A DNA stretch of 13,750 nucleotides, from assembly GCA_026785785.1 (NCBI GenBank), contig JAJAZI010000065.1:1-13750 (forward strand), written 5' to 3'. The translations under genes were made by a program, and so were the position numbers. The stretch is from Microbacteriaceae bacterium. GTDB taxonomy: Bacteria; Actinomycetota; Actinomycetes; Actinomycetales; Microbacteriaceae. Positions 4,124-7,063 of the stretch are shown in pieces. Within the stretch, counting starts at the first letter, position 1, and every line of letters starts with the position of its first letter. Below the pieces are notes generated by a model that was not told where the DNA came from, did not search any database, and saw only the letters and a program-made list of their open reading frames with translations.

Positions 4124-4450
4124 ATGACGGATCCGGGAACCTTCGACAGCGCCGAGAAGCTCCAGAGCCTGCGCCGCAGCATCGACAACATCGACGCGGC
4201 TCTCGTGCACCTGCTCGCGGAGCGGTTCAAGTTCACCCAGGAGGTCGGTTGGCTCAAGGCGACCGCCGGGCTGCCGGCATCCGACCCCGCCCGCGAAGCC
4301 GTTCAGATCGCCCGGCTGCGGGCGCTCGCCGAGGAGTCGCGGCTCGACCCGGCCTTCGCCGAGAAGTTTCTGAACTTCATCGTTGCGGAGGTCATCCACC
4401 ACCACGAGGAGATCGCCGGCACCGGCTCGATAGACACCCACCGCCCCTAG
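4124..4450 (+). CDS. Chorismate mutase, stand-alone AroQ type
   Basis: A 108-residue all-helical protein of the AroQ (CM_2) class, which rearranges chorismate to prephenate at the entry to Phe/Tyr synthesis. The pattern is clear: LRRSIDNIDAALVHLLAERF (helix 1, with the conserved Arg and Asp), FTQEVGWLKA with the active-site Lys, then the D-P-A-R-E loop, RLRALAEESRLDP and a final helix FLNFIVAEVIHHHEEI. Length is normal for a free-standing domain; there is no fused prephenate dehydratase, dehydrogenase or DAHP synthase. No secretion signal is seen, so it should act in the cytoplasm. In some actinobacteria the free-standing enzyme works with DAHP synthase, but that partner is not in the window. 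It is preceded by a leaderless-type -10 element and followed by the repeat units described separately. Confidence 0.88.
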   Translation: MTDPGTFDSAEKLQSLRRSIDNIDAALVHLLAERFKFTQEVGWLKATAGLPASDPAREAVQIARLRALAEESRLDPAFAEKFLNFIVAEVIHHHEEIAGTGSIDTHRP

Positions 4451-4458
4451 CGAGTTCT

Positions 4459-4589
4459 CTTTCATTATTCAGGAGTTGGGGACTGAAGTGACGGCCGAGC
4501 GGGGGAGTGCCTCCGCAAATGCGGTAGTTTCAGCATCGGCTTGCCGCGATCGCGGTAGTTGTTCGCCAGTCACTCCTGAATAATGAAAG
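4459..4589. repeat. Unit 1 of a tandem pair of ~130-bp inverted-repeat-bounded elements
   Basis: The unit is bounded by a perfect 18-bp inverted repeat: CTTTCATTATTCAGGAGT at 4459-4476 and its complement at 4572-4589. The arms are AT-rich against a GC-rich genome. Inside the arms, GACTG (4481-4485) pairs with CAGTC (4567-4571). An inner hairpin TGCGGT (4520-4525)/GCCGC(G) (4543-4548) has a 17-base loop. It also holds GCAAATGCGGTAG near its centre and the 12-bp palindrome CCGCGATCGCGG (4544-4555). No convincing coding frame is seen. With unit 2 it fills the gap between the convergent chorismate mutase and purL genes. Confidence 0.8.
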
Positions 4590-4605
4590 CGGGACCCCAG
4601 CATCC

Positions 4606-4734
4606 CTTCCATTATTCAGGAGATACCGGGTGCAGTAGCGGCTGATTGGCCAAACTAGCAGCAAATGCGGTAGATATTGACCTCAGATGCCGCAAACACG
4701 GGATCAGTGCCCCATCGCTCCTGAATAATGAAAG
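4606..4734. repeat. Unit 2 of the tandem pair, diverged copy of unit 1
   Basis: Same direction as unit 1, 16 bases after it. The arms are CTTCCATTATTCAGGAG (4606-4622, one mismatch) and CTCCTGAATAATGAAAG (4718-4734). The central GCAAATGCGGTAG (4661-4673) is identical to unit 1 and lies at almost the same distance from both ends. The inner hairpin TGCGGT (4666-4671)/GCCGCA (4689-4694) again has a 17-base loop. The outer stem extends through GGGTGC (4628-4633)/GTGCCC (4707-4712), a different sequence from unit 1 that still pairs. The rest of the unit has diverged, so this is an old duplication under structural constraint or two separate insertions. Confidence 0.8.
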
Positions 4735-4747
4735 CCAGCCGGGAGGC

Positions 4748-7063
4748 TCAGCCCAGCAGCACCCCGAAGTGCTCCGCCATGGTCGCGGTGTGCACCGCGC
4801 GCAGCTCCTCGATCGACACGGTGAAGTGGTCCTGCACCTCCAGCTCGCCCGACTTGTCGGTGACGCCGATGCGGAGCACCGGGTAGCCGCGCCCCTCGCA
4901 CAGGCCCTGGAACTTCACGTCGTCCTCGCGCGGCACCGACACGATCACGCGGCCGGTCGACTCGCTGAACAGCGCAGTGGCGGCGTCCACCCCGTCGCGC
5001 GACTCGATCTCGGTGAGCCACACCCGGGCGCCCACGCCGAAGCGCATCACGGCCTCGGCGAGGGCCTGGCCGAGCCCGCCGTCGGCGAGGTCGTGCGCGG
5101 CTGCGACGAGGCTGCCCGTGCCGCCGGCCTGGATCAGCGCGGCGAGGTTCATCTCCGCGGCGAGGTCGACCGCGGGTGGGCGTCCGCCGAGGTGGTCGTG
5201 GATGACGCCGGCCCAGGCCGACCCGTCGAGCTCGAGCGAGGTGGTGCCGAGCAGGTAGATGTTGTCGCCCTCGTCCTGCCAGCCCGACGGGATGCGGCGG
5301 CCGACGTCGTCGATGACGCCGAGCACGGCGACGACGGGTGTCGGGTGGATCGGCACGTCGCCGGTCTGGTTGTAGAACGAGACGTTGCCGCCGGTGACGG
5401 GAATCTCGAGCTCCAGACATCCGTCCGCAAGGCCCTCCACGGCCTTCGCGAACTGCCACATGACCTCGGGGTTCTCCGGGCTGCCGAAGTTGAGGCAGTC
5501 CGAGACGGCGACCGGGGTCGCACCGGTGACGGCCACATTGCGGAACGCTTCGGCGAGGGCCAGCCGCGCGCCCTGGTAGGGGTCGAGCTGGCAATAGCGT
5601 CCGTTGGCGTCGGTCGCGACCGCGAAGCCGAGGCCTGACTCCTCGTCGACGCGCACCATTCCGCCGTCGTCCGGGAATGACAGCGCCGTGTTGCCCATCA
5701 CGTAGCGGTCGTACTGGTTGGTGATCCAGCTCTTATCGGCGAGGTTCGCGCTGCCGAGCAGGGCGAGAAACTGCGAGCGCAGCTCGTCGGGAGTCGTCGG
5801 GCGGGGGAGAGCGGATGCCGTGTCGGCCTGCAACGCGTCGATCCAGGCCGGATAGGCTACCGGGCGGTCGTAGACGGGGCCGTCGACGGCGACCGTGCGC
5901 GGCAGAACGTTGACGATCTCCTCGCCGCGCCAGTTGATGATCAAGCGCCCGGTGTCGGTGACCTCGCCGAGCACGCTCGTCTCGACGTCCCACTTCGCGG
6001 TCACCGCGAGGAAGCCCGCGAGCTTCTCCGGGGTGACGATCGCCATCATCCGCTCCTGGCTCTCCGACATGAGGATCTCCTCTGCGGTGAGCGACGGGTC
6101 GCGCAACAGCACGTTGTCGAGCTCGACGAACATGCCGCCGTCGCCGTTGGAGGCGAGCTCCGAGGTCGCGCAGGAGATTCCGGCGGCGCCGAGGTCCTGG
6201 AGTCCCTCGACGAGCTTGCCCGCGAACAACTCGAGGCAGCACTCGATGAGCACCTTCTCGGCGAAGGGGTCGCCGACCTGCACCGCGGGACGCTTGGTCG
6301 GGCCTCCCTCGGAGAACGAGTCGGACGCGAGGATGGATGCCCCGCCGATGCCGTCGGCGCCGGTGCGGGCACCGAACAGCACGACCTTGTTGCCGACGCC
6401 GCGCGCGTTGGCCAGGTGCAGGTCCTCGTGCCGCAGCACGCCGACCGCGAGGGCGTTGACGAGCGGGTTGGCCTGATAGACCGAGTCGAAGTAGGTCTCA
6501 CCGCCGATGTTCGGCAGGCCGAGGCAGTTGCCGTAGAAGCTGATGCCCGAGACGACCCCGTGCACGACGCGCGCCGTGTCGGGGGAGTCGATCGCGCCGA
6601 AGCGCAACGCATCCATCACCGCGACCGGGCGGGCGCCCATCGAGATGATGTCGCGCACGATGCCGCCGACGCCGGTCGCCGCGCCTTGGAACGGCTCGAT
6701 GTAGGACGGGTGGTTGTGCGACTCGATCTTGAACGTCACGGCCCAGCCCTCCCCGACGTCGACGACGCCCGCGTTCTCGCCCATACCGACCATCAGGTTC
6801 TTGCGCATCTTCTCGGTTGTCTTCGAGCCAAACTGGCGCAGGTGGTTCTTCGAGCTCTTGTAGGAGCAGTGCTCGCTCCACATGACCGAGTACATCGCGA
6901 GCTCGCCGCTTGTCGGGCGCCGGCCGAGGATCTCGCGGATCGCCGCGTACTCGTCGGGCTTGAGCCCGAGAGCACCGAAGGGCTGCTCCTTGTCGGGAGT
7001 GGCCTCGGCGTTCGCGACGGAGTCGGGGGCGGGACGTGTGGGGGTGTTTGCGGCTGCGCTCAC
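4748..7063 (-). CDS. purL: Phosphoribosylformylglycinamidine synthase subunit PurL
   Basis: A 771-residue small-type PurL, the synthetase subunit that converts FGAR to FGAM with ATP and ammonia supplied by PurQ, bridged by PurS, in step 4 of purine synthesis. Family marks in order are [32 protein letters not shown] (catalytic His region, about 41-72), the [22 protein letters not shown] segment (about 113-134, nucleotide/metal site), [16 protein letters not shown], then the duplicated half: [52 protein letters not shown] and the C-terminal [16 protein letters not shown]. Length fits the family (~740-770). The start is GTG at 7063, with AGGAGT 9 bases upstream (7073-7078). purS and purQ are not adjacent on the visible side; the gene reads into the repeat pair. 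Confidence 0.96.

Follow-up and report, generated by a model that had tools for sequence, protein, structure and literature searches.

REPINs and their RAYTs are the best-known bacterial population of tiny repeats tied to a single enzyme gene. RAYTs are thought to act on REPINs by cutting or synapsing them, spreading and homogenising the copies. BIME, BOX and ERIC repeats are modular extragenic palindromes, like the elements described here but different in sequence, and we know of no partner gene with a Vsr fold for any of them. The parts of PMC3116915 drawn on here describe REPIN-RAYT systems as inverted doublets of a short word with a variable interior and preferred lengths, extragenic and in places gathered into tandem clusters, in which the RAYT gene lies beside its own repeat and the repeat variant tracks the enzyme. 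The available portion of PMC1525189 describes two IS110 elements, IS621 and ISPpu9, as targeting REPs.

Judged by the available parts of PMC3116915 and PMC3733652, REPIN-RAYT is the closest known system to the repeats described here; its defining enzyme was not found in the 42 genomes searched. The likeness lies in inverted, extragenic, dispersed doublets, preferred spacing, tandem clusters, a cognate gene adjoining its own repeat and a repeat variant that tracks the gene. The differences are that no Y1 enzyme was found here, that each arm may hold many phased boxes and that a helical quantisation points to a double-stranded substrate. In addition, the shared box TTTCATNATTCAGGAG lacks GTAG on inspection, and the boxes are not themselves tagged hairpins.

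The window, the whole stretch of 13,750 nucleotides that was analysed, contains two such units of about 130 bp in tandem between the ends of convergent genes, as the initial annotation had proposed. Unit 1 (4459-4589) is 131 bp long, and its terminal inverted repeats pair at 18 of 18 bp. Its left arm (4459-4476, + strand) carries the core box ATTCAGGAG at 4467-4475 and its right arm (4572-4589, − strand) the core box CTCCTGAAT at 4573-4581, an inward-facing pair with a box start-to-start distance of 113 bp. Unit 2 (4606-4734) is 129 bp long, lies at an offset of 145-147 bp from unit 1 and pairs at 16 of 17 bp. Its core boxes, at 4614-4622 in the left arm (4606-4622, +) and at 4718-4726 in the right arm (4718-4734, −), also face inward, 111 bp from start to start. 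The AT-rich terminal repeats of 17-18 bp and the shared central GCAAATGCGGTAG reported at the outset are both present, the latter within 4513-4529 in unit 1 and 4659-4675 in unit 2. On one side lies a chorismate mutase (CM_2) gene (4124-4450, +), whose stop is 9 bp ahead of the first box, and on the other a purL-like gene (AIRS, AIRS_C, FGAR-AT linker; 4748-7063, −), whose 3' end is 14 bp past the last box. Both interiors contain GTAG, as GCGGTAG, outside the shared box. Rfam and tRNA searches of the window returned nothing, in agreement with the earlier statement that no known family was recognisable.

This arrangement is the sole + − + − case among 116 box clusters in the fetched stretches of four genomes. 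In G005, a genome of the same genus, the orthologous place holds one unit of 111 bp (L084), to which the unit 2 interior is 79% identical over 63 bp. A recent duplication was rejected as the origin of the pair, since the two interiors in the window have no mutual match at E<1e-4 and the single unit of G005 does match unit 2. An older duplication followed by loss in G005, or else a separate insertion, is the better account. G002, also of this genus, has the same purL/chorismate mutase pair with an element-free gap of 49 bp that is not alignable by eye.

The units belong to a large dispersed family. At up to 2 mismatches, the 2.40-Mb genome from which the window comes contains 73 forward and 70 reverse copies of the arm word TTTCATTATTCAGGAG, whereas the same word read backwards occurs 0 times, so the repeat in the window is not due to chance. 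The initial view of a real, repeated and selected feature is borne out, and the further copies that it named as a check are found in three other genomes of the genus (G001, G003 and G005); the arm word is absent from G002 and G004. An exact-pattern scan of genome contigs gave named matches in M. senii and the MAG LF-bin-143 only. Each arm of a family member is made of one to five copies of TTTCATNATTCAGGAG that face inward, and most members lie immediately beyond the stop of a gene. Of the 116 clusters, 109 have between one and five + boxes, then a middle, then between one and five − boxes; six are one-sided. Within an arm, the usual box spacing is 33-34 bp (31 in G003), with about 20-24, 43, 54 or 64 bp making up most of the rest, and box numbers often differ between the two arms. 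More widely, 49 of 398 Microbacteriaceae genomes have an inverted pair of ATTCAGGA spanning 88-118 bp (0 with the reversed control), a count in which some genomes look like coding matches (G141, G286 and one place of G196).

The distance between the arms is governed by a helical ruler. Start-to-start distances of the inner boxes pile up near 81, 91, 102, 112, 123, 133 and 143 bp, a quantisation at 10.46 bp (bootstrap 95% interval 10.34-10.58; 107 elements), which is the repeat of B-form DNA. The Rayleigh statistic nR^2 reaches 60 at 10.5 bp for 107 distances, against a maximum of 13.8 among 2000 sets with a jitter of at most 5 bp. This pooled test leaves out the distances of at least 180 bp (111 to 107), which the per-genome tests retain, and orthologous elements of G000, the window's own genome, and G005 are both counted. 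Taken singly, G000 (nR^2 18.3), G005 (18.1) and G003 (19.6) are each significant, and G001, with 7 distances (3.0), is not. In other genera, the listed ATTCAGGA spans fall at 90-95, 102-107 and 114-117 bp with outliers at 98 and 100, giving an nR^2 of 18.0 for 48 listed spans that include 9 single, coding-like or second-pairing ones; the 27 distinct gene-adjacent spans outside the own genus have a best period of 10.35.

Plain common descent does not explain the ruler, because mostly unrelated interiors share it. Orthologous elements tend to hold their length: 12 of 18 G000/G005 interiors with both flanks matched agree within 2 bp, five of them free of indels at 71-84% identity. The remaining 6 differ by 10, 16, 22, 32, 34 and 90 bp, of which 16 is off the ruler, and some of these differences are boxes gained or decayed. 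Quantisation, unequal box numbers and kept lengths together point to double-stranded DNA bound by a protein.

A candidate for such a protein is encoded between the repeats themselves. In G104 (Glaciihabitans-like), G000, G005 and G003, one gene lies between two elements at one shared place. Its neighbours in the window's own genome are a pyridine-nucleotide oxidoreductase gene and a biotin carboxylase gene; a carboxylase-like neighbour recurs at 14 of 30 loci, with an oxidoreductase-like neighbour too at 9 of those, so one gene place is common to several genera. The product has about 300 residues with similarity to MTES_1575/DUF559 and is predicted, from a structure model, to be an AbiEi-like domain fused to a nuclease domain of the Vsr/homing-endonuclease fold (I-Bth0305I type). 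All 65 scanned homologs match MTES_1575 at E<=0.001 and 3 of the 65 match Vsr; the own-genome protein scores below Pfam's cut-off. The model, made for a 96%-identical homolog, has a pLDDT of 94. In a fold search, its top match is the AbiEi antitoxin 6y8q (E 7e-6), then Rv2827c (1zel); the I-Bth0305I catalytic domain 3r3p is matched at E 1e-3 with a TM of 0.79 by target length, and Vsr (1vsr) with a TM of 0.55. AbiEi profiles match residues 9-94 weakly, as the 3r3p HMM does residues 205-272. Residues E201, D228, E239, H246 and D255, which are invariant in the 65 homologs, are putative active-site residues, and D241 is kept in at least 90%.

The protein resembles Vsr-like homing endonucleases of the EDxHD type, such as I-Bth0305I, in the modelled fold of its catalytic domain; it differs in being encoded by a chromosomal gene, in carrying an AbiEi-like domain and in having multi-copy sites that flank the gene. 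The likeness to AbiEi antitoxins lies in the best fold match and a weak N-terminal profile match, and the difference is that the AbiEi-like domain is here joined to a nuclease domain. Carriage by plasmids or phages was considered and rejected, as only 3 plasmid records and 1 phage record were found with P0034 as query, all weak at <60% identity. Sources label such genes only as 'DUF559 protein', 'very-short-patch-repair endonuclease' or AbiEi-like; in the available part of PMC3710099, the MTES_1575 domain is presented as a nuclease with a Vsr fold.

Gene and elements occur together. Across 54 hand-chosen genomes, a homolog above 200 bits is present in 13 of the 24 with at least 2 ATTCAGGA pairs versus 1 of the 30 with 0 or 1 (G009; p=2e-5). 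Without the four genomes that built the profile, the figures are 9 of 20 versus 1 of 30 (p=5e-4), still far from chance. This grouping knows only ATTCAGGA pairs of 88-118 bp, and G390, in the second group, has shorter pairs beside the gene and 17 second boxes; the profile itself, built from four rows that are all of the ATTCAGGA type, is biased towards it. Eleven of the 24 element-bearing genomes have no homolog above 200 bits, G170 with 11 elements included. Among the nine g57 genomes, the homolog is confined to the element-rich G137 and G243, and at the same threshold it is absent from G193 and G284, which have 4 and 5 pairs. It is also absent from G002 and G004, the two genomes of the own genus mentioned above. 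In G170, all 11 pairs are of the ATTCAGGA type and the best match reaches 124 bits, but a close homolog is present in G266 and G108, which belong to its genus; the G170 repeats are possible orphans after loss of the enzyme.

Elements of the ATTCAGGA type stand on both sides of the best match at 11 of 30 loci (G000, G005, G003, G001, G104, G334, G363, G223, G390, G196 and G170) and on one side at 3 (G137, G243 and G009); no ATTCAGGA pair lies beside the best match at the other 16. A flank test that is independent of the co-occurrence figure asks for an identical inverted 9-mer pair in both flanks: it is present at 36 of 70 family genes versus 145 of 4746 swapped flanks (3%), and at 0 of 70 when the gene's own DNA serves as the second side. 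The 70 genes are the 30 returned loci and 40 further listed matches, close orthologs included, and 34 of them fail this strict form; a looser 12-mer form is passed by 41 of 70 versus 2.5% of 840 swaps. The box varies from gene to gene, with ATTCAGGAG, AAAACAGGAG, GTTTCTCCGGAG, GAAATGCAGGA, GTTGTGCAGGA, GAAATTCAGGA, GAAACTCAGG, AAACGCAGGA and ACTCCTGCA among others, and it tracks the protein: nearest-neighbour proteins share an 8-mer in 24 of 40 cases, against a permuted mean of 5.5 and maximum of 13. At L181 and L182, the gene is flanked within 330 bp by five + boxes on one side and by five or three − boxes opposite, the layout expected of an autonomous element. The cognate pairing of elements and nuclease is well supported at the level of sequence.

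The search for a second box was a prediction from gene flanks that held. Pairs of GAAANNCAGG occur in 14 of the 28 genomes searched: in all 12 whose gene flank carries the second box, and also in the own genome G000 (9) and G005 (13). They occur in 0 of the 14 other genomes, G213 among them, and the reversed control gave 0. Counts range from 2 (G223) to 37 (G076), gene-side copies included. The 75 spans listed of 146 pairs are all 77-80 or 88-91 bp long, where 64-94 was allowed, and occupy 8 of the 31 allowed lengths. Two of the G005 pairs flank a nuclease paralog at 2005173-2006030. The second family, GAAATTCAGGA/GAAACTCAGGA, forms a dense cluster at 1.98-2.007 Mb of G005 contig C1, made partly of tandem copies about 220-240 bp apart, and is seen also on G000 contigs C202 and C224.

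The units in the window are probably non-autonomous members of a family of palindromic repeats with helical phasing, for which the AbiEi-Vsr-fold nuclease is the cognate enzyme. Copy number, helical phasing and the cognate gene had all escaped the initial annotation; of the options it listed, a miniature mobile element and a protein site are kept and a structured RNA finds no support. We read the partnership as similar to that of REPIN and RAYT, with an unrelated enzyme that would act on double strands and, we infer, mobilise the elements. The nuclease would bind the boxes as double-stranded DNA, and copies bound on the two arms would meet only if they lay on the same face of the helix. The paired complex would then cut or synapse the element, which may spread, maintain and homogenise the copies, and those that survive would sit just past gene stops, where harm is least. 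Several results count against this reading: recent copying is rare, as only 14 same-genome pairs among the 107 interiors match at E<1e-4, no target-site duplication was seen by eye, no clean, alignable empty site was found, and the genomes with elements but no close homolog, the genes that fail the strict flank test, the loci without a ATTCAGGA pair and the six interiors of altered length fit it less well. The helical ruler makes this mechanism directly testable.

We lean slightly towards a wider reading, that AbiEi-Vsr nucleases and their own phased palindromes form a new class of repeat-enzyme partnership, in which a REPIN-RAYT-like life evolved independently, with nucleases that act on double-stranded DNA by pairing boxes on one helix face, and one partnership was inherited at a single locus across genera while box and protein changed together. 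If true, a second, unrelated enzyme shares the architecture of REPINs and RAYTs, which would show that their way of life arose more than once. DUF559/MTES_1575 genes would gain a suggested role, and many natural protein-box pairs would become available from which to read a recognition code. A literature search, whose coverage excluded most subscription papers, returned no report of a link between such repeats and the nuclease.

The stable position of many elements is compatible with a host function as well. The elements may be domesticated sites, of the kind that chromosome-organising proteins have in SlmA and Noc sites, or gene-end sites, at which the protein would bind the phased arrays to bridge DNA, insulate convergent genes or mark the origin half of the chromosome without any movement. 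This is unlikely, though placement lends it some weight. Of the 107 elements with two called neighbours, 86 have a gene 3' end no more than 60 bp away and 31 a 5' end, and the context is convergent for 48 of 98 elements versus 31 of 190 background gaps (p=1e-8); these gene calls come from a crude composition caller, with which 14 of the 116 clusters overlap a gene call and 4 have no neighbour. Elements also gather around dnaA: among the places listed for G005, the half nearer to it contains 30 of 43 first-family loci and the far quarter a single one (KS p=5e-5), and the near half holds 22 of 26 loci in G137 (p=6e-4) and 9 of 11 in G104 (KS p=0.06). Some places are common to different genera, since both flanks of four G104 elements, at three loci, are orthologous to those of own-genus elements, and G137 (two loci) and G130 (one locus) share one flank with them. 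However, core genes may themselves sit closer to the origin, G145 (5 of 7) and G026 (3 of 5) show no significant origin bias, and 11 of the 13 second-family copies listed in G005 lie near the terminus. The invariance of the putative active-site residues, a nuclease gene flanked by its own elements and box families that differ within one genome also speak against such static sites. An improbable alternative makes the boxes autoregulatory operators of an AbiEi-like single-gene toxin or antitoxin and the scattered copies decoys or remnants. AbiEi antitoxins do bind inverted repeats, and the fold match to 6y8q and the weak AbiEi match in the N-terminal part agree with this, but the same pair stands on both the upstream and the downstream side of the gene, and dozens of copies have unrelated genes as neighbours, most of them housekeeping genes.

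A structured RNA, or a bidirectional terminator acting as RNA between convergent genes, was among the options of the initial annotation, which argued for selection on a folded structure. Its example, the stem extensions GACTG/CAGTC in one unit and GGGTGC/GTGCCC in the other, is visible by eye, and none of 200 dinucleotide shuffles folds as well as the original, on either strand of either unit (z -4.3 to -6.1). Such folding, which with the placement at gene ends is what speaks for an RNA, is expected of any long inverted repeat. The covariation does not generalise: over the 22 bases inside the boxes of 107 elements, pairing within an element is no better than pairing between elements (mean duplex energy -15.25 versus -15.33, p=0.58), so that the compensatory changes named as a check show no excess. 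This complementarity test and the 10.46-bp period, with an interval that excludes 11, led to rejection of a structured RNA; the unequal arms speak against it as well, and with the empty Rfam search they make the RNA reading very improbable. That the elements arose as ordinary MITEs, through a transposase of the classical DDE or the Y1 kind, or as IS110 footprints, is hardly credible. Terminal inverted repeats and dispersed copies suit such an origin, as do the IS110-like copies in or beside G005 elements. Against it, the interiors are mostly unrelated, where copies of a classical MITE would have homologous ones. A search of 42 genomes for the Y1 transposase PF01797, the RAYT enzyme, gave no hit in any of them (its control responded in 5 of 14 known genomes), and a RAYT was rejected as partner enzyme on this count. 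No autonomous IS with family ends was seen in the fetched G000 and G005 stretches. Among the 25 of 168 families listed for genes beside G005 elements, none exceeded 3 of 79, with 7 of 8 IS110 copies left out of this count. The IS110-like element itself looks like a guest, because the one copy with both junctions read splits a box; this recalls IS621 and ISPpu9, as far as the available account of them goes, with the element here a guest rather than a driver.

Several smaller observations accompany the family. The IS110-family element is 98.9-100% identical at 8 fetched G005 places, within boxes at L104:461-1735 and beside them at L071, L076, L077, L078, L085, L102 and L103. Two contig ends of the own genome, L038 on C19 and L061 on C329, carry near-identical elements (interior 96%) with one shared flank, which are either strain variants in the assembly or a duplication. 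Within the elements, CAGCATCC/GGATGCTG is enriched, occurring in 39 of 107 interiors versus 2.8 expected from the flanks, and by eye it forms an inner hairpin in L046:1210-1424.
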